Assembly (NCBI GenBank): GCA_938010785.1
Contig: CALLVC010000339.1
Span: forward strand, 1 to 37,926
Direction: 5' to 3'
Length of the DNA: 37,926 nucleotides
From: an uncultured Saprospiraceae bacterium
Lineage (GTDB): Bacteria; Bacteroidota; Bacteroidia; Chitinophagales; Saprospiraceae
Part shown: one piece after another, positions 2,571-10,215 of the stretch
Numbering within the stretch: the stretch's first letter is position 1
Layout: each line of letters starts with the position of its first letter
Translations under genes and position numbers: made by a program
The notes under the pieces: model-generated
The model's input: the letters and a program-made list of their open reading frames with translations, nothing else
Told to the model about the DNA's origin: nothing
The model's database searches: none

Positions 2571-3014
2571 ATGAAAACAATTACAATTTTTATCTTAACT
2601 GTCTTATTACTAACATCATGCAGTAGCAATGACGATGGCAGAAATGGCAACCCTAATATCCCAGATTATGCTTTTGATACTGGTGATTTAATAAATACCA
2701 ACCTTCCTCAATACAGTAATCTACAATTTCCTGGTAATTATATTTTATTAGATAATCCTTATGGTGTTAACGGCGTTGTACTATATAGTTCTGGTACTAC
2801 CTACAGCGCTTTCGAGTTAAGTGACCCGAATCATCAAGTGAATACTTGTTCTCGACTTACAGTAGAAGGCATTATTGCATCATGCGCTTGTGACGACGAT
2901 AACACTTATAACATTGTAAACGGCGGTCAACAAGAAGGCACTTCTGGTCAATACGGACTTGTACCCTATGGTGTTGAAGTCGTTGGAAATATTATTAGGG
3001 TTTTTAATAATTAA
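2571..3014 (+). CDS. Exported lipoprotein with degenerate Rieske-like domain
   Basis: A 147-residue lipoprotein. The signal peptide ends in the lipobox LLTSC (Cys17), followed by a Ser/Asn/Asp-rich linker as in many Bacteroidota surface lipoproteins. From about residue 45 the order of elements resembles a Rieske [2Fe-2S] fold: YSAFELSDPNHQ where box I would be, SCACDDDNTYNI where box II (CPCHGS) would be, then LVPYGVEVVGNIIRV as in the Rieske C-terminus. The ligand set is incomplete: no Cys two residues before His88, and Asp108 replaces the box II His. It probably no longer binds a [2Fe-2S] cluster. Its stop overlaps the stop of the convergent TonB receptor by 4 bp. The function is unknown, and the Rieske assignment is inferred from motif order. 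Confidence 0.75.
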   Translation: MKTITIFILTVLLLTSCSSNDDGRNGNPNIPDYAFDTGDLINTNLPQYSNLQFPGNYILLDNPYGVNGVVLYSSGTTYSAFELSDPNHQVNTCSRLTVEGIIASCACDDDNTYNIVNGGQQEGTSGQYGLVPYGVEVVGNIIRVFNN

Positions 3015-5227
3015 AACTTAAACGTCGCCCCTAACAAAAAATTAGTTCCCGCTTGCGGATAAAACCCTGCACCATCAAAAGTTGTGACACCTGGATTAGG
3101 ATCATTAGGCACATCGAATGTAAAATAATACCCATTAGAAACATACTTGGTGTTAAAAATATTATTCACTAGACCTGATAAAACAATTGATTTGAAAATT
3201 GATTTTGGCTTTATCTCGTAAGTGACATTAAAATCATTTACAAAATAACTATCCAACTTAGAGGCTTCCACGTCAAAATTACTCATGTATTGCTCTCCAA
3301 CATATTTAGACAAGAACACAAATTGAAGGTTTTGTATTGGATTAAATTGTAACATATTTCCAATAATTACATCTGGCGAAAAAGAAATATTTGTATTTCC
3401 AATAGTAATTAACTCACCATTTAAAGTTCTCGAAAAGTCAACATTCTTATTAGTGCTAATAGCAATGTTTGGCAATACCGAAAACTTATCAGAAATCTTT
3501 ATTTGGGCATCAACTTCGAGCCCTAATCGATAACTTTTACCACTATTTGCACGTATGGGAGCACCAACATCATCTAATGCTCCAGTGAGCACTAGTTGGT
3601 TATTATAACCCATATAATATACATTTGTATTTAAGACTGTTCTCTCTGAAACATGTCTCCATCCTAGCTCAAAATCGTTTAACTCTTCTGGTTCTGGATT
3701 TCCATTTTCGTAATCTGTACGGTTGGGTTCTCTGTTTGCACGTGCATAAGAAGCATACAAAGTATTGTCCTGATTTAATTGATATGTAGCCCCAACTTTA
3801 GGATTGAAGAAGGTAAAGTTATCCTCTACTGAAAAATTCACTAAATCAGAATTCAATCCGCCATCAGTTGAGTAATCGATACTTCGGACTTGCAAATCAC
3901 CGTAAAGACTCCATTTACCATCTAGCTTAAAAGTAGCTTTAGAAAACACATTAAATTCAGTTTTCTTTGCAGAATTATCGTAATAGCGGTCTCGTATTTC
4001 GCTATTGCTGGCAAATTGTGCCCAAATAACCTCTCCAAAATGGTCTCCCTCGTATACATTATAAGCGCCTCCAAAGACTATATCCGTTTTAGAATTTTTA
4101 TAGTTTAAAGAAAAAGTAGTGCCGTAAAAGTCGTTATCCAACCAACGTCTTCGTATTAGATCTGTGGTTTCAATCGTTTCACCTCCGATAACAATTGGCG
4201 TAAATCCGTAAGTAGAGAAATCTTCGTCTTCTTTGTATTGCTCAAAATATCCTCTTCCGTAAGTATAATGAAATGCTAAATTAGAGGACCAGTTATTATC
4301 ATATCGCTGATTCCAATGTAGTTGATAATGGTCTTGATTGTAGTTGTCAACTTCGTTGTCATAAAACTGAGTATTTCCATTTTCGTCTGTATAAACCCCT
4401 GCTGGATTGAACGTTCTATCAGACTCTAAAGTAGCAGCATCAATACCAAACCAAGATTGATATGTTCTTTCAAAACCTCCAAAAGTAATCGCTTTAATAA
4501 GAGTATTATCATCTACATAACTTCCTTGAAGAAAATATGATTTTAGTTCTGATTCGGCTCTGTCTATATAACCATCACTTGTTATCTTAGAAAGTCTTCC
4601 CGCCACTTCAAAATGATTATTAAGTTTACCGGTGCTGAATTTTACAGTATTCTTAAAAGTATTAAATGAGCCAATAGATGAAGCAATTTCTGCATTAGCT
4701 TTCTCTGAGACTGCATCTGTAAGAATATTTAAACTCGCACCAAAAGCACCTGAACCATTAGTAGAAGTACCCACACCCCTTTGCAACTGAAGGCTCTCAA
4801 CAGAGGACGCAAAATCCCCAAGATTTACCCAAAAGGTACCATGGGATTCGGAGTCGTTATAAGGAATACCGTTAATTGTAACGTTAACTCGGGTGGCATC
4901 ACTACCCCTGACACGAATACCTGTATATCCCACTCCAGCCCCAGCATCTGTGGTTGTAACAACACTAGGTAAATAGTTTAACAGTATTGGAATGTCTTGA
5001 CCAAGATTTCTTTTATTTAGCTCTTCTTTAGATACATTACTGTAGGTCATGGGTGTTCCTTCCTTAACACGAATGGCACTAATTAGAACTTCATCTAGCT
5101 TTTGTAATTGCGTCGAATCTTTTTCCTTTTCTTGAGCAAAAACAGATGTAGAAGCAATAAAAAACAGTAATACTGATACTTTTTTAAAAAATAACCGAAT
5201 AGACAGGAATGCAAAATTACTTTTCAT
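3011..5227 (-). CDS. TonB-dependent outer-membrane receptor, probable thiamine transporter (OMR1 type)
   Basis: Outer-membrane beta-barrel receptor of 738 residues for energy-dependent uptake. The signal peptide ends near VFAQ (about residue 31). Next comes a TonB-box-like stretch (KLDEVLISAIRV) and a plug domain with the hallmarks YTGIRVRGSDATRVNVTINGIPYND and LQRGVGTSTNGSGAFGASLNI. The rest is barrel, ending in an aromatic C-terminus (LGATFKF). The family alone does not give the substrate. The TPP riboswitch in its leader does, because in Bacteroidota such riboswitches control thiamine-uptake receptors. PnuC, a thiamine-binding protein and a kinase encoded upstream on the same strand agree. 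It is the last gene of the minus-strand run and has its own promoter and riboswitch. Confidence 0.92.
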   Translation of the reverse strand: MKSNFAFLSIRLFFKKVSVLLFFIASTSVFAQEKEKDSTQLQKLDEVLISAIRVKEGTPMTYSNVSKEELNKRNLGQDIPILLNYLPSVVTTTDAGAGVGYTGIRVRGSDATRVNVTINGIPYNDSESHGTFWVNLGDFASSVESLQLQRGVGTSTNGSGAFGASLNILTDAVSEKANAEIASSIGSFNTFKNTVKFSTGKLNNHFEVAGRLSKITSDGYIDRAESELKSYFLQGSYVDDNTLIKAITFGGFERTYQSWFGIDAATLESDRTFNPAGVYTDENGNTQFYDNEVDNYNQDHYQLHWNQRYDNNWSSNLAFHYTYGRGYFEQYKEDEDFSTYGFTPIVIGGETIETTDLIRRRWLDNDFYGTTFSLNYKNSKTDIVFGGAYNVYEGDHFGEVIWAQFASNSEIRDRYYDNSAKKTEFNVFSKATFKLDGKWSLYGDLQVRSIDYSTDGGLNSDLVNFSVEDNFTFFNPKVGATYQLNQDNTLYASYARANREPNRTDYENGNPEPEELNDFELGWRHVSERTVLNTNVYYMGYNNQLVLTGALDDVGAPIRANSGKSYRLGLEVDAQIKISDKFSVLPNIAISTNKNVDFSRTLNGELITIGNTNISFSPDVIIGNMLQFNPIQNLQFVFLSKYVGEQYMSNFDVEASKLDSYFVNDFNVTYEIKPKSIFKSIVLSGLVNNIFNTKYVSNGYYFTFDVPNDPNPGVTTFDGAGFYPQAGTNFLLGATFKF

Positions 5228-5336
5228 TCGAAACTAAAATTTATGCGAATAAAAAGGGGTGATTATTCTATTGTTGATATTACTTAATAAACGTTATTTA
5301 TAGCAACCTCCTAATCGATGATTATTTGGCATCCAC

Positions 5337-5359
5337 AAAAATATCCTCAGGACATTTTT
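5337..5359 (-). terminator. Hairpin with U-tract just after the TPP aptamer (candidate expression platform)
   Basis: The minus strand reads AAAAATGTCC-TGA-GGATATTTTT, a hairpin of about 10 bp including one G-U pair, ending in five T. It begins only a few bases after the 3' strand of aptamer helix P1. That position suits a riboswitch-controlled transcription terminator. The stem is AT-rich and weak, so translational control remains possible. Confidence 0.45.
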
Positions 5360-5362
5360 TTA

Positions 5363-5447
5363 ACGTTCGCTTTCCTAAACAGCATTACCTGTTCCAGGTT
5401 CAATGGGTATGATCTCAGCCGCTTATCGGCACCCCTAATGAGAACGC
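5363..5447 (-). promoter_or_regulatory. TPP (THI-box) riboswitch aptamer
   Basis: The minus strand contains the conserved thiamine pyrophosphate aptamer landmarks in order: GGGGTGCC, GGCTGAGATCATACCC, TTGAACCTGGAACAGGTAATGCTG (split here into its recognised parts GAACCTG and GGTAATGC), then TTTAGGAAAGC. Helix P1 closes as GCGTTC (5447-5442) with GAACGT (5368-5363), including one G-U pair. It lies 135 nt upstream of the TonB receptor. TPP binding is expected to lower receptor expression when thiamine is plentiful. Confidence 0.95.
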
Positions 5448-5449
5448 AG

Positions 5450-5457
5450 CAAAGATA
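5450..5457 (-). promoter_or_regulatory. Candidate promoter -7 element for the riboswitch/TonB receptor transcript
   Basis: The minus strand reads TATCTTTG (TAnnTTTG). It ends a few bases before aptamer helix P1, placing the start point near 5444. The receptor could therefore be transcribed independently of the upstream operon. The -33 element is unclear. Confidence 0.5.
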
Positions 5458-5497
5458 TATAGGATTTTTGATTTACTAATTATGAATCAAGAATTTT

Positions 5498-5905
5498 TTA
5501 TTCAATATTAGGTTTTTTCCGAGATGTTTTTTTATCGGATTGTAGTTTCTTGTTTTTTAGTCGTTTTAGCCTAACAGATTTGGGGATTCTTGTAGGTTTG
5601 CGCATTTTTGGTTGTACCAACCCTCTATTAAGGATATCAAGCAAACGTCTGACAATTATTTCTTTATTTCGATACTGGCTTCTAGTTTCATCACAGTGAA
5701 GAATAATGACATTGTCTTTAGTTAATCTTTCTGCAATTGTTTTGAGTAAAAGTTCTTTGTGTTCTTCTGTAAGAACCGTGGATTTCAATAAATCATACCT
5801 GAGTTCAATCTTTGTCGAAACCTTGTTTACATGCTGCCCTCCACTACCAGAACTTCTAACAGCTTTGAATTGAATCTCTGATATTATATCTTCAACGGTA
5901 ATCAT
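5498..5905 (-). CDS. arfB: Ribosome-rescue peptidyl-tRNA hydrolase ArfB (YaeJ)
   Basis: Release-factor-like hydrolase that frees stalled ribosomes without a stop codon. The 135-residue protein has the catalytic GGQ at residues 22-24 within RSSGSGGQHVNKVSTKIELRYD. It ends in a long Lys/Arg-rich tail (from about residue 100), which in ArfB inserts into the empty mRNA channel. The presence of the tail and the short length separate it from RF1/RF2. Its start codon overlaps the stop of the DUF4301 gene by one base (TAATG), so translation is probably coupled. The role has no obvious link to the thiamine genes around it. Confidence 0.92.
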   Translation of the reverse strand: MITVEDIISEIQFKAVRSSGSGGQHVNKVSTKIELRYDLLKSTVLTEEHKELLLKTIAERLTKDNVIILHCDETRSQYRNKEIIVRRLLDILNRGLVQPKMRKPTRIPKSVRLKRLKNKKLQSDKKTSRKKPNIE

Positions 5906-7458
5906 TAGCTACCAACTTGATGATGGGCTTTTAGAAGGTCATTGACAGTTTTCACAGGATTAAAAGTAACAAGTGGTACCTCAACGAAAATTGTGTTCCA
6001 ATTTGCCATACTTCCGTTCCATAATCCAGGTAGCTCTAATGCTTTAATGTCTTTACCAACTTTCGTTTTCATTGTGATAAAAGCAGTTTTATGATCTACA
6101 TACTTAGTTAAATCAAACTTATTGCCTTTATAGTCTTTAACACCACATACAAGATCTACTGGATTAAAATGAGTTGCATTTTTAAGAATATTTTTTTGAT
6201 GTTTGTTCTTTTTATCAATTTGAGCAGACTCAACTATCTGTAAAGATATATTAGCACTTTCATCTTTTACCCAAAATGGACCGCCACCGGGTTCACCTTC
6301 ATTTTTTACCATGCCACAGACTCTTATTGGACGATTGAGCTTTTCGAACAAATATTCTTTTTGATACTTTTTGCTATACTTCTCGAACTCAGTACTAATA
6401 ACCAAATTAAGCTCATTAGACATAAACTGAGCGATAACCATTAATTTTTCTTCATTGACATCTGCTTCTAAAGCTCTTAAATATGTAAAGGCTTGTTCTT
6501 GCACTTTCAATAATTTACCCGCCAACATTTTCTTACTATCGGCAACTTCTTGTTCGTACTTGAAAACAACAACATTGTCTATATTTTTGATAAAAATAAC
6601 ATCAGCATCAAGGTCGTTTAAATTTTCTATTAACGCACCATGACCAGATGGCCTAAACAATAATGATCCATCCTCTTCAATATAGGGCTTATTGTCTGTT
6701 GTTAATGCTATAGTATCTGTGGATTCTTTTTGATATGAAAATGAAATATCAAAAGCTGTATTTGTTTTTCTTTCGACGATTTCTTCAATTCTCTTAAACT
6801 CTTCATCAAAAATATTTTTATGCTTTTCTGAAATCGTAAAATGCAAATCTGCCTTACCATTAGACGAAGCATATATAGCGGCTTCAAAGAGATGTTCCTC
6901 AAAAGCAGTGGCTATATGATCCCTATATTGATGAAAAGGAATCAACCCTTTTGGGTAGTTACCATAGTTAAGTTTATCCTTAGCCATCATCATTTCTACA
7001 AACAAATACAACTGCTCATTAAGACTAAGTTTACCAAAATTTTTATTCAGTTTATGTAGTTGTTGTTTTACTATATAATAAAAAGGAAGCTTATTTATGC
7101 CTACAAAAAAAATCGACATTTCTGAAGCTTTCTTCCTGTTTATATAAGAATTAAGACTTTCTTCCTTCGGCCTGAAGTCTTCAAAGAATTTAAATAAGAA
7201 CTTAAACATTCGGGTCGCAGCACCAGATGCAGGAACAAACTTTAGTATTGATATATCATCACGCTTATTGTCATAATTCTCAATTAAATCTTTTCTTTCA
7301 TTATCATTAATGGACAAAATACCATTCCCAATAGTTGCAGCCGATTTTAAATTAACAAATGGCAGCCCTTTCTTGAATAGGTTTACTTGACTCTGAACTT
7401 TATCTAAAGTCAGCCCTTTATCATGTATTTGTTTGAGTTGTTTTTCTGTAAAATTCAA
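5905..7458 (-). CDS. DUF4301 protein, possible nucleotidyltransferase
   Basis: A 517-residue cytoplasmic protein of the Bacteroidota-typical DUF4301 family, recognised by KFVPASGAATRMFK (about 73-86). Two segments look like sugar-nucleotide pyrophosphorylases of the GT-A fold. The PASGAATRM loop resembles the N-terminal nucleotide-binding loop, and LLFRPSGHGALIENL followed by VIFIKNIDNV (266-296) resembles the GHG...NxDN block, in which an Asp binds the metal. This suggests an NTP transferase, but that is inference and no substrate is known. The start overlaps the NadR-like kinase stop by 4 bp (ATGA) and the stop overlaps the arfB start by 1 bp, so it is embedded in the operon. Confidence 0.85.
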   Translation of the reverse strand: MNFTEKQLKQIHDKGLTLDKVQSQVNLFKKGLPFVNLKSAATIGNGILSINDNERKDLIENYDNKRDDISILKFVPASGAATRMFKFLFKFFEDFRPKEESLNSYINRKKASEMSIFFVGINKLPFYYIVKQQLHKLNKNFGKLSLNEQLYLFVEMMMAKDKLNYGNYPKGLIPFHQYRDHIATAFEEHLFEAAIYASSNGKADLHFTISEKHKNIFDEEFKRIEEIVERKTNTAFDISFSYQKESTDTIALTTDNKPYIEEDGSLLFRPSGHGALIENLNDLDADVIFIKNIDNVVVFKYEQEVADSKKMLAGKLLKVQEQAFTYLRALEADVNEEKLMVIAQFMSNELNLVISTEFEKYSKKYQKEYLFEKLNRPIRVCGMVKNEGEPGGGPFWVKDESANISLQIVESAQIDKKNKHQKNILKNATHFNPVDLVCGVKDYKGNKFDLTKYVDHKTAFITMKTKVGKDIKALELPGLWNGSMANWNTIFVEVPLVTFNPVKTVNDLLKAHHQVGS

Positions 7459-8024
7459 CGTTGTTTCTTTAAAAGTTGGTCGATATACTTTATGGCCTCT
7501 TCTAGTCTGTTTTGCTTACTTCCCTTAAGCAGCACATAAGGTCTATTGTACTTTATTAAGGCACTTTCGAAAGCTTTGAACATTTCTTCTCTATGCTCTG
7601 GTTTATCTCGTAAGTCGTCGGCTTCCCAAGGGGTATCAATATACGTTAAAAAATAAAGGTCGTATGTGTTTTCGATAGCATATTTCTCTAAAACAGGGTC
7701 ACAAGTTCCTAAATAGTATGCTTCGGAATAGACTTTTGTTTCTAAAAGATCTGTATCACAAATCAACACAGTATTAGTTTTTCTTGCTAATTTATTTTCC
7801 AAACGAATTTGCCCTTTAGCAATAGGCAATAAATCTTTTGGCTCACAAGTTTTTCTTTCGTTATTCCATTTACTTTGCAGGTATTGCCTTGCATATTCTG
7901 GCACCCAAACAGAATCATAATGTCTAGCCAATTGCATAGAAAGCGTTGTTTTGCCAGTAGATTCCGGCCCAAATAATACAACCTTTATGCAGTTTGAAGG
8001 TTTCTGTTTAAGCTTTTCTTCCAT
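7455..8024 (-). CDS. NadR-like ribosylnicotinamide-kinase-type ATPase, candidate vitamin kinase
   Basis: P-loop kinase of 189 residues. Walker A is GPESTGKT (19-26), followed by WVPEYARQYL and later CDTDLLETKVYSEAYYLG, as in the kinase domain of NadR. The nucleotidyltransferase and DNA-binding domains of full NadR are absent. NadR kinase domains phosphorylate vitamins brought in by PnuC-type facilitators and trap them in the cell. Here the upstream gene is a PnuC/PnuT transporter, and thiamine genes flank the pair, so a thiamine (or precursor) kinase role is plausible; nicotinamide riboside is the alternative. The coding start lies inside the pnuC gene (40-bp overlap), and the next gene overlaps by 4 bp. 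Confidence 0.85.
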   Translation of the reverse strand: MEEKLKQKPSNCIKVVLFGPESTGKTTLSMQLARHYDSVWVPEYARQYLQSKWNNERKTCEPKDLLPIAKGQIRLENKLARKTNTVLICDTDLLETKVYSEAYYLGTCDPVLEKYAIENTYDLYFLTYIDTPWEADDLRDKPEHREEMFKAFESALIKYNRPYVLLKGSKQNRLEEAIKYIDQLLKKQR

Positions 8025-8617
8025 TCTAAATATCCTTGTATTGCTAATATAGTGAAGATGATGTATTGGAGTGATAGCATTCCTAATCCTCTATAAGCAT
8101 ATAAAGGAATTGTAATAATATTTGCCACAATCCATAGTGTCCAGTTTTCTATCTTTTTATTTGCCATATACCACATCGCAGTAAAGAAAATTCCTGAAGT
8201 TAAAATGTCCAAATAATTCGGAATTTGGATATTGTAATCGTATGCTTTATATACCATAAAAGTAACTACCATTGTAGATAGAAAAAGTGCAAAGCCTATC
8301 CATTTCTCTTTAGTATTGGTTCTGGAAATAGGTACAATATATTTTCCTTTCTTTTTTCTGGACCAGTTCCACCAACCATAAATACTCATTACAGAATAGT
8401 AAAAATTCATCATCATATCACCAAAATACTCGTTGATATAAAGTAGATACACAGTAATTACAGTGCAGATTATACCTGTTGGGTATACTAATATATTTTC
8501 TTTTTTAGCAAACCAAACACTGGCTATACCGAATACGAAAGCTATAGCTTCTAGTACTATTTGGTATCTGGGAGTAGCTTTGTAGGCTTCAAGGAAAAAA
8601 TCAAAAATTTGGCTCAT
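7985..8617 (-). CDS. PnuC/PnuT family vitamin transporter, probably thiamine
   Basis: Inner-membrane protein of 210 residues with about seven hydrophobic helices and the family features YGWWNWSRKKKG and ENWTLWIVANIITIPLYAYRG, the latter matching the substrate-binding region of PnuC. These facilitators move nicotinamide riboside (PnuC), riboflavin (PnuX) or thiamine (PnuT), with trapping by phosphorylation. The preceding gene encodes a thiamine-binding-type protein and the cluster carries a TPP riboswitch, which favours PnuT. Substrate specificity cannot be read from the residues I can see. It overlaps its upstream neighbour by 17 bp and its downstream neighbour by 40 bp. Confidence 0.9.
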   Translation of the reverse strand: MSQIFDFFLEAYKATPRYQIVLEAIAFVFGIASVWFAKKENILVYPTGIICTVITVYLLYINEYFGDMMMNFYYSVMSIYGWWNWSRKKKGKYIVPISRTNTKEKWIGFALFLSTMVVTFMVYKAYDYNIQIPNYLDILTSGIFFTAMWYMANKKIENWTLWIVANIITIPLYAYRGLGMLSLQYIIFTILAIQGYLEWKKSLNRNLQTA

Positions 8618-8861
8618 AATCGCTTCTATCTGATTTTATTACCTTCATAGTAAGTACTGAAATATCTTGATTTTGAAAAGATGCCCTTATCGTCTTTGTT
8701 AAAAACGGCATTAAAGTATCATAATCACCATACACTTGAGTACTAAGAGGATTTTCTAGTACTTTAAATTCAGAATTTTGTAATGCTTTAATAAAAGTAA
8801 TTATGTGTTCCTCGTAATTATCCTGTAAAGGTGATAAAGTTAAATCTACAGATATCTTCAT
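8601..8861 (-). CDS. MTH1187/YkoF-like thiamine-binding protein
   Basis: A small 86-residue soluble protein of the MTH1187/YkoF-like superfamily. The recognisable segments are MKISVDLTLSPLQDNYEEHI at the N-terminus and NPLSTQVYGDYDTLM in the middle. The fold is ferredoxin-like. YkoF binds thiamine or its pyrimidine moiety HMP, and relatives are found beside thiamine genes. Here it immediately precedes and overlaps the PnuC/PnuT gene by 17 bp. It starts 5 nt after pcrB, so it is part of the same transcript. It has no signal peptide, so it acts in the cytoplasm. Confidence 0.82.
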   Translation of the reverse strand: MKISVDLTLSPLQDNYEEHIITFIKALQNSEFKVLENPLSTQVYGDYDTLMPFLTKTIRASFQNQDISVLTMKVIKSDRSDYEPNF

Positions 8862-8866
8862 TCTCT

Positions 8867-9589
8867 TTAATTTAATTCGTTAAAAAAAGCTTCATCTTCT
8901 TCAAAAGCTGTACCGACAACTACCATATCTGCACCGGCTTTGTATGCGTCATCTAATTGTTTTTTACTTCTTACGCCACCTCCAACAATTAATGGAATAT
9001 TAATCGTTTTTTTTACTTCTGATATTATTTCAGAATCAATCGGATGTGTCGCACCACTCCCAGCCTCTAAATACATTAATTTTTGTCCTAGAAGTTGTCC
9101 CGCTAAGGATGTATCTACAATCTTAGACACCTCATTTCTTTTCATGGGTTGCGTTTTTGTAACACGCTCTACAGATGTTTTTTTGCCACTCTCAATTAGA
9201 ACATATCCTGTTGGAATAACCTCTAACTCAGATGCCTTTAATAAAGGTATTGCTTGTACATGTTTATCAATTAAATAGTCAGGGTTCCTACCAGAAATAA
9301 GGGATAAAAACAATAATGCATCTGCATTCTCAGAAATCTGAGTAATATCTCCTGGAAAAACTACAACAGGAATTTTTGTAAGATTTTTTAGCGCTGCAAT
9401 AAGAATTTGGGTAACATGCTTACTTACTTCGCTTCCCCCAACAAAAACATGTGTCGCAATAGAAGCATTTAACTTATCCATAAAACTTGGAAGCGCTTCC
9501 AAAGTTGTTTTATCTGGATCTATAAGAACAGCCAATAACTTTTCTTTCTTTTTTATAGAAGCCTGTATGTTTTTATAAACACTGTTCAT
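8867..9589 (-). CDS. pcrB: Geranylgeranylglyceryl/heptaprenylglyceryl phosphate synthase (PcrB family)
   Basis: TIM-barrel prenyltransferase that joins a polyprenyl diphosphate to sn-glycerol-1-phosphate. Family hallmarks are LLAVLIDPDK near the N-terminus, FVGGSEVSKHV, YLEAGSGATHPI and the phosphate-binding LIVGGGVRSKKQLDDAYKAGAD. I place the start at 9589, giving 240 residues, because its ATG overlaps the upstream TGA (TGATG), a coupling arrangement. An ATG at 9610 would add seven unconserved residues. Bacteroidota carry such genes, but the lipid made here cannot be read from the sequence. Confidence 0.9.
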   Translation of the reverse strand: MNSVYKNIQASIKKKEKLLAVLIDPDKTTLEALPSFMDKLNASIATHVFVGGSEVSKHVTQILIAALKNLTKIPVVVFPGDITQISENADALLFLSLISGRNPDYLIDKHVQAIPLLKASELEVIPTGYVLIESGKKTSVERVTKTQPMKRNEVSKIVDTSLAGQLLGQKLMYLEAGSGATHPIDSEIISEVKKTINIPLIVGGGVRSKKQLDDAYKAGADMVVVGTAFEEDEAFFNELN

Positions 9590-10215
9590 CAAGACATTAC
9601 ATAGGCGCATGAAAATCCATCAAATTCCAAAAAATTAGCGTCATATTTTAGTTTACTGGATTTATAATCTATCCATGCATTTGTAAAATCATCTCGAAGC
9701 ATGAATGGTATTACAAATGTGTTCATCTTAAAACTCAAACCTGGCGTAGCAAAAAGTTTGAACAAAGACTCCTTTATACACCAAATGATTGTCAGTTTTT
9801 TAACTAAATCTGGGTCTTTGTCTTTTAAATACTGCTCTTCGTAACCAATAAATTTAGGAGCTACAATCTTTATTTTGTCTCTTTGCTTTTCTATATCAAT
9901 ACCTACTATTGAATCTGAAACAATAACAGCAGAATAATTAAATGAATGGGTAATGGATATATTCTTACCATCCTTTAAATGAGGTTTCCCATTTTCATCG
10001 TAGTATAAGTCATTATCCTTGTAACCAAATTCGTGTAGCAAATGACGCACACTCAAAAATCCTCTCTGATGAACAGAAGATTTCATTCCGTCAACTCTTT
10101 CTTGGCTCTCAGGTCTTAATTGAAGTGGTTTAATCAAGTCATCATATGACTCTTCAATACGCCAAATCTTAACAATAGTTTGTGAGTTTACGGTGATGGA
10201 TTTGTATAATGGCAT
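9589..10215 (-). CDS. 4'-phosphopantetheinyl transferase superfamily protein
   Basis: Transfers the phosphopantetheine arm of coenzyme A to a serine of acyl or peptidyl carrier proteins. The 208-residue protein has the Sfp-type pattern: SITHSFNYSAV (substrate binding, about 87-97), VGIDIEK with metal ligands Asp107 and Glu109, and WCIKESLFKLF (145-155) with the conserved W-xx-KE-xxx-K. The length fits the two-lobed Sfp class rather than the trimeric AcpS class. It is the first gene of the minus-strand run and is coupled to pcrB by a 1-base overlap. No carrier protein or polyketide gene is nearby, so the target is unknown. Confidence 0.9.
   Translation of the reverse strand: MPLYKSITVNSQTIVKIWRIEESYDDLIKPLQLRPESQERVDGMKSSVHQRGFLSVRHLLHEFGYKDNDLYYDENGKPHLKDGKNISITHSFNYSAVIVSDSIVGIDIEKQRDKIKIVAPKFIGYEEQYLKDKDPDLVKKLTIIWCIKESLFKLFATPGLSFKMNTFVIPFMLRDDFTNAWIDYKSSKLKYDANFLEFDGFSCAYVMS

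Follow-up and report, generated by a model that had tools for sequence, protein, structure and literature searches.

The closest described counterpart of the locus considered here is the OMthi-PnuT-Tnr3 system of Bacteroides thetaiotaomicron, for which the excerpted text of PMC5613172 gives OMthi as BT2390 and pnuT-tnr3 as BT2396-BT2397, and reports that a biosynthesis mutant requires more thiamine when a transporter is deleted. A second point of reference is the PnuC-NadR pair, which salvages nicotinamide riboside, and a third is the thiamine pyrophosphate (TPP) riboswitch with translational OFF control, the general scheme of which is set out in an extract of PMC2258182. The mode of TPP riboswitches in Bacteroidetes was termed uncertain in a 2017 paper. 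Here, these systems are compared with a locus on the minus strand of a 37,926-nucleotide stretch of DNA (contig CALLVC010000339.1 of assembly GCA_938010785.1, assigned to an uncultured Saprospiraceae bacterium; the whole stretch is hereafter called the window). The locus comprises a gene for a TonB-dependent receptor preceded by a TPP aptamer and, upstream, a run of genes that includes a PnuC-family transporter and a stand-alone NadR-type kinase. We hold with moderate confidence that this conserved locus of marine bacteria serves thiamine salvage, employing the NadR-type kinase and a riboswitch on the receptor gene.

A conserved locus with a TPP aptamer ahead of the receptor gene

The receptor gene (3011-5227, minus strand; PF00593, 95.5 bits, and PF07715) encodes an OMthi-like TonB-dependent protein and is preceded by a TPP riboswitch aptamer (5355-5446, minus strand), which matches the RF00059 model over its full length (positions 1-105) with 50.2 bits (E 3.5e-9 in 301 bases) and is the sole TPP match on the contig. 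As this score lies below the gathering score of 54.3, the default Rfam scan of the whole window was empty. The same aptamer pattern is found ahead of the receptor in 71 of the 73 Flavobacteriaceae relatives that have a receptor. A -7-like promoter box, TATCTTTG (5450-5457, minus strand), matches TAnnTTTG, which we take to be the Bacteroidota consensus, and 72 of the 73 relatives have a box of this kind at most 45 nt ahead of the aptamer (chance ~0.03 per leader). Such boxes are frequent by chance (57 found in the window, 56 expected), and support for this promoter therefore comes from its conserved placement. Taken together, the recurrence of the aptamer pattern and of the box argues that the aptamer is not a chance match, and it would be expected to bind TPP. 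A class-wide sample of 119 genomes, in which TPP matches, kinases and thiamine pyrophosphokinase (TPK) were counted, shows that the Rfam gathering score misses many Bacteroidota aptamers: 71 of the genomes have a match that passes it and 113 have one at E 0.001.

Upstream of the receptor, the minus-strand genes from 10215 to 5498 form a single run, overlapping or separated by very short gaps, in the order 4'-phosphopantetheinyl transferase (PPTase), pcrB, MTH1187-like gene, PnuC-family gene, NadR-type kinase, DUF4301 and arfB. The run is followed by a gap of ~50 bases holding the TAnnTTTG box, the aptamer, a leader of ~130 bases and the receptor gene. Comparison with 80 named Flavobacteriaceae loci, found with the transporter and in several cases on short contigs, identified the kinase in 79, the MTH1187-like gene in 63, DUF4301 in 70, arfB in 72 and the receptor in 73; the layout is thus ordinary for this family. 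Of the 63 loci with both an MTH1187-like and a PnuC-family gene, at least 61 show an overlap between the two. Since layout and aptamer are kept across these loci, the division into a receptor under riboswitch control and an inner-membrane unit without a riboswitch is genuine and conserved.

Receptor relatives of 27-60% identity sit under TPP riboswitches in other families, where kinase clusters lie directly ahead of the riboswitch-receptor unit, one locus (L173) having the order TBP-pnu-kinase-riboswitch-receptor. In other classes of the phylum, TPK comes after a riboswitch-receptor unit (L164-L172, L183); L164, L166 and L170 have riboswitch, receptor, TPK and what is presumably a symporter-like gene in a row. 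A sequence-only reading of the window had placed the TonB receptor, PnuC-type, MTH1187-like and NadR-like kinase genes on one strand, and Pfam matches assign all four to the minus strand; its gene list omitted DUF4301 (5905-7458) and arfB (5498-5905), which lie in between. That the receptor is under TPP control, with the inner-membrane part in a separate upstream run with PPTase and pcrB, is supported by the aptamer match, its recurrence in relatives and the overlapping genes. The binding-protein gene and the PnuC-family gene, which overlap, proved to be a conserved pairing, and the comparison of gene order that this reading proposed finds the layout conserved in the 80 loci and the kinase-riboswitch-receptor order recurring elsewhere.

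A candidate thiamine kinase

The kinase (7455-8024, minus strand; 189 residues) contains the AAA_28, ribosylnicotinamide kinase-type domain of NadR (PF13521, 144 bits) and carries the NadR scaffold, with P-loop GPES[ST]GK, ExxR, DT and WxxDxxR motifs evident in an alignment of 26 sequences. It consists of the kinase alone, the nicotinamide mononucleotide adenylyltransferase (NMNAT) domain being absent. Its structural model (predicted local distance difference test, pLDDT, 94) matches NadR best (8x7f, 1lw7), followed by thymidylate kinases. No TPK (PF04263) is present among the proteins of the window locus and, in 40 locus-bearing genomes that we chose from the 80, TPK is missing from 36 whilst ThiL scores above its cut-off in all 40. 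Because ThiL needs thiamine monophosphate, imported thiamine would require a kinase.

In the class sample, stand-alone NadR-type kinases were found in 66 genomes of 28 families, about 20 of these genomes being assigned solely on the length and score of the match, and TPK in 24 genomes of 14 families. The two enzymes occur together in just two genomes of a single genus (Fisher p 1.9e-7, the genomes being related), and families f20 and f24 contain both kinase-bearing and TPK-bearing members. In 23 genomes from 15 families, a TPP riboswitch follows the kinase on the same strand at a distance of at most 4 kb, giving 24 pairs, 18 of them within 0.81 kb (chance ~0.0006 per kinase); TPK is downstream of a TPP riboswitch in 2 of 24 cases. 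The frequent lack of TPK with ThiL present, the linkage to TPP riboswitches and the rare co-occurrence with TPK make this enzyme a likely thiamine kinase, and the stand-alone NadR-like kinase probably replaces TPK in trapping thiamine. The thiamine salvage proposed in the earlier reading is likewise favoured by the riboswitch on the receptor and by the absence of TPK where ThiL is present. No NadR-like thiamine kinase, nor a PnuT paired with one, was found for Flavobacteria in the open-licence PubMed Central literature.

By their family names, PnuC and NadR, annotation would assign these genes to the metabolism of nicotinamide adenine dinucleotide (NAD), and the main rival explanation for the inner-membrane part is that the transporter and kinase salvage nicotinamide riboside for NAD and merely adjoin a thiamine receptor. 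NCBIfam does name the transporter PnuC (TIGR01528, 91.5 bits, cut-off 42.45), the kinase matches the NCBIfam NadR domain below its cut-off, and the fold matches point the same way. In the kinase tree, NMNAT-fused NadR proteins, including the solved 1lw7 and 9x6f, group with the protein of L248, in which the kinase domain lies far into the frame; 61 stand-alone kinases form a second group and the Flavobacteriaceae kinases a third, which a starred branch joins to NadR, outside the large riboswitch-linked group. Unlike the true NadR beside PnuC in L015, L184 and L188, however, the window kinase has no NMNAT domain, and none of the three NMNAT-fused NadR proteins of the class sample is linked to a TPP riboswitch, in contrast to the linkage of the stand-alone kinase in 15 families; the lack of TPK where ThiL is present also speaks for a thiamine kinase. 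Two genomes (G146 and G243) hold both a PnuC-NadR pair (L184, L188; NMNAT-type by Pfam) and a stand-alone kinase (L185, L187), which suggests that the two proteins have different jobs. We consider NAD-precursor salvage rather unlikely.

The PnuC-family protein (7985-8617, minus strand; PF04973, 177.1 bits) is a candidate for the PnuT role of thiamine transporter. In the transporter tree, the window's member belongs to a group of 27 that is well supported and has no NadR-linked members; as a test of substrate this tree was dropped, its deep branches being unresolved.

Several observations weigh against a thiamine role for this transporter and kinase. Besides the starred branch, TPK and kinase co-occur in four of the 40 locus-bearing genomes (those of L101, L075, L071 and L112) and in genus g60, and 31 of the 119 class genomes have neither enzyme. 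The two are thus no simple complement of each other, and the Fisher result, which also comes from related genomes, amounts to support rather than proof. The deep branches of the transporter tree are weak and do not separate substrates, and the MTH1187/YkoF-like protein of 86 residues (8601-8861, minus strand) matches PF01910 (Thiamine_BP) with 23.8 bits, under the curated cut-off of 24.9.

Many genomes hold, alongside the NadR-type kinase, a further AAA_28 family whose P-loop is GGPGxGK or a close variant (L144, L146, L149, L150, L153, L155, L157, L268-L283). Provisionally called kinB, this family was rejected as a second kinase copy, its sequences showing a different family, and was removed before class-sample kinases and their riboswitch linkage were counted. 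In L161 (7163-8608), beside a TPP riboswitch-receptor unit, the kinase frame runs on into an aldose 1-epimerase domain.

A candidate switch at the receptor start codon

An element in the receptor leader, ACCCCTTTTT (5251-5260, minus strand; from motif and folding), situated within GAATAATCACCCCTTTTTATTC (5268-5247), has two alternative pairing partners, the aptamer strand AAAAAGGGGU and the start codon (UUUUUAUUCG pairing to CGAAUGAAAA). The former pairing, with the aptamer 5' strand AGGGGU (5431-5436, minus strand), appears in the unconstrained minimum free energy fold of the window leader (-57.0 kcal/mol; pair probability ~0.5-0.55), and separate folds of the aptamer and of the downstream part total -51.8 kcal/mol. 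The latter gives a predicted sequestor hairpin, CTTTTTATTCG ... CGAATGAAAAG (5220-5256, minus strand), enclosing the AUG at 5227. The element, in the form CC[CT]C...TTTT..ATTC, lies ahead of the start codon in 71 of 73 Flavobacteriaceae leaders, mostly 14-24 bases away; a stricter form has a single match in 71 of 81 sequences (1.38 Mb) and a second match in none. Of 69 distinct leaders, 59 have the start codon paired into the element, L103 with its GTG start being left out of this count, and the hairpin is more stable than dinucleotide shuffles (mean z -3.0; z < -1 in 68 of the 69). Upper-stem positions 2 to 6 use A-U as well as U-A, counted from single folds, which lean towards pairing.

At the level of the class, 60 TPP riboswitch leaders were collected, 37 ahead of a receptor and the rest mostly ahead of frames that we take to be ThiC-like; two receptor leaders shorter than 20 or longer than 200 nt were left out, giving 35. 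When aptamers and leaders were swapped between species, pairing within the same species (-11.83) exceeded that of swapped combinations (-10.15, sd 0.30), and none of 10,000 swaps was as good; two control segments of these 35 leaders showed no effect (p 0.15 and 0.16). With one leader per family (n=23), none of 4,000 swaps was as good in each of 20 draws. The distance from the end of the pairing site to the start codon is 10-40 bases in 30 of the 35 leaders, against 53% in shuffles, and the downstream hairpins are stabler than shuffles (Wilcoxon 5e-5). Species-specific pairing of aptamer and leader was also seen in TPP leaders ahead of other genes, mostly ThiC-like (L308-L367 without a receptor), where 21 were tested and none of 10,000 swaps was as good.

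Three results tell against this model. RNAalifold, applied to 36 of the 69 Flavobacteriaceae segments, returned another small hairpin without covariation, from an input in which MAFFT had left the second hairpin strand unaligned. Shuffling of the aptamer flank within species caused no significant loss (p 0.13; 18 of 35), so that the pairing signal would be carried by some of the species, and only 16 of the 35 class leaders have at least half of the element in the downstream hairpin.

From these alternative pairings, the receptor switch is probably a translational OFF device in which the start codon is hidden when TPP is plentiful. Hiding the start codon itself fits flavobacterial translation, which the excerpted text of PMC6847099 describes as tuned by structure near the start codon, without a Shine-Dalgarno sequence. 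No account of a TPP riboswitch platform for Bacteroidetes was found in the open-licence PubMed Central literature.

The sequence-only reading had set an aptamer, a promoter and a terminator-like hairpin before the receptor. The first two stand; the hairpin (5337-5361, minus strand) exists, with a run of U after it, directly at the 3' end of the aptamer match, and would permit the riboswitch to act through transcription termination. A similar hairpin is present in just 15 of 70 leaders, however, and the one at 5361-5337 was not listed by a consensus terminator scan. In B. thetaiotaomicron, transporter transcripts were unchanged by thiamine, according to the excerpt of PMC5613172, and an extract of PMC12121620 counts 6 of 57 TPP riboswitches as transcriptionally active, with no Bacteroides among the species that it names for those six. 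Termination was rejected as the general switch mechanism and is quite improbable in the window, the conserved platform being instead the start-codon hairpin with its anti-aptamer element.

Proposed pathway and remaining alternatives

In the proposed pathway, thiamine would enter through the TonB receptor, as an OMthi type, cross the inner membrane through the PnuC-family facilitator in the role of PnuT, and be trapped by the NadR-type kinase as thiamine monophosphate, which ThiL would then turn into TPP. Kinase and transporter would be expressed from the riboswitch-free upstream run, the receptor alone having its own promoter and TPP riboswitch. Without TPP, the aptamer 5' strand would pair with the element upstream of the receptor start codon, leaving the latter free (ON); with TPP, the aptamer would reclaim its 5' strand and the element would pair with the start-codon region, blocking translation (OFF). 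The probable kinase replacement and the platform model are the strongest new points. A broader joint proposal is more tentative, and we rate it slightly below an even chance: that the stand-alone NadR-type branch is the missing thiamine kinase of most Bacteroidia lacking TPK, a second origin from the nicotinamide riboside kinase fold, and that TPP riboswitches of the phylum share a platform in which the aptamer 5' strand is the anti-sequestor of a start-codon hairpin.

The kinase might instead act on an imported thiamine precursor or breakdown product, hydroxyethylthiazole or hydroxymethylpyrimidine (HMP), with which the genomic association would be the same; ThiD and ThiM, however, are the usual enzymes for these steps. 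Elsewhere, TPP riboswitches do control precursor uptake (PMC3766115, in extract), but the receptor here is OMthi-like, and the excerpt of PMC5613172 has OMthi tested for thiamine in B. thetaiotaomicron. Action on a precursor appears very unlikely. Least probable of all is that the neighbourhood reflects ancient Flavobacteriaceae synteny and has no functional significance, as the conserved bystanders arfB, pcrB and PPTase might suggest, given that other families repeat the kinase-riboswitch-receptor order in their absence and that L079 keeps transporter, kinase and receptor together with every bystander gone.

Neighbouring genes and origin of the contig

The remaining genes of the run are PPTase (9589-10215) and pcrB (8867-9610), both upstream, arfB (a ribosome rescue hydrolase; NF006718, 128 bits, cut-off 100) and DUF4301 (PF14134, 728 bits, above the curated cut-off), all on the minus strand. 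The DUF4301 model (pLDDT 90) resembles UDP-sugar pyrophosphorylases (VIA Z 23.1 over 333-338 residues). In one genus DUF4301 is fused to the kinase (L156, L159, L222 and L223, the first checked with Pfam), which suggests a shared pathway, and the loci of the four genomes with TPK showed no DUF4301. A small lipoprotein-like gene (2571-3014) is convergent with the receptor gene, shares 4 bases with its end and is retained beside it in many relatives.

The contig is apparently mis-binned, being 96.65% identical across 11.6 kb to a Flavobacteriaceae contig (L034). Loci from relatives of the source genome (G000) do not have the window's gene order, and G000 has a kinase-riboswitch-receptor unit of its own on contig C117 (L162); both bear on the mis-binning. 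No relative was found among viral contigs.

Comparison with known systems

The locus represents a variant form of the OMthi-PnuT-Tnr3 system known from Bacteroides. As far as the excerpted description of that system extends, the two share a TonB receptor under a TPP riboswitch, a PnuC-family transporter and a trapping enzyme, arranged in two units. Unlike it, the window locus contains no TPK/Tnr3 and has a NadR-type kinase and an MTH1187-like gene, and its inner-membrane unit lies upstream and is riboswitch-free. With PnuC-NadR salvage of nicotinamide riboside the locus has in common the transporter family, the kinase fold and the adjacency of the two genes, whereas its kinase is without the NMNAT domain and is linked to TPP riboswitches. 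TPP riboswitches of the Escherichia coli type exert translational OFF control, and the logic of anti-sequestor and sequestor is the same in the model proposed here; in contrast to that type, the window leader is predicted to pair the start codon itself, with no sequestration of a Shine-Dalgarno sequence, and the anti-sequestor would be the aptamer's own 5' strand.

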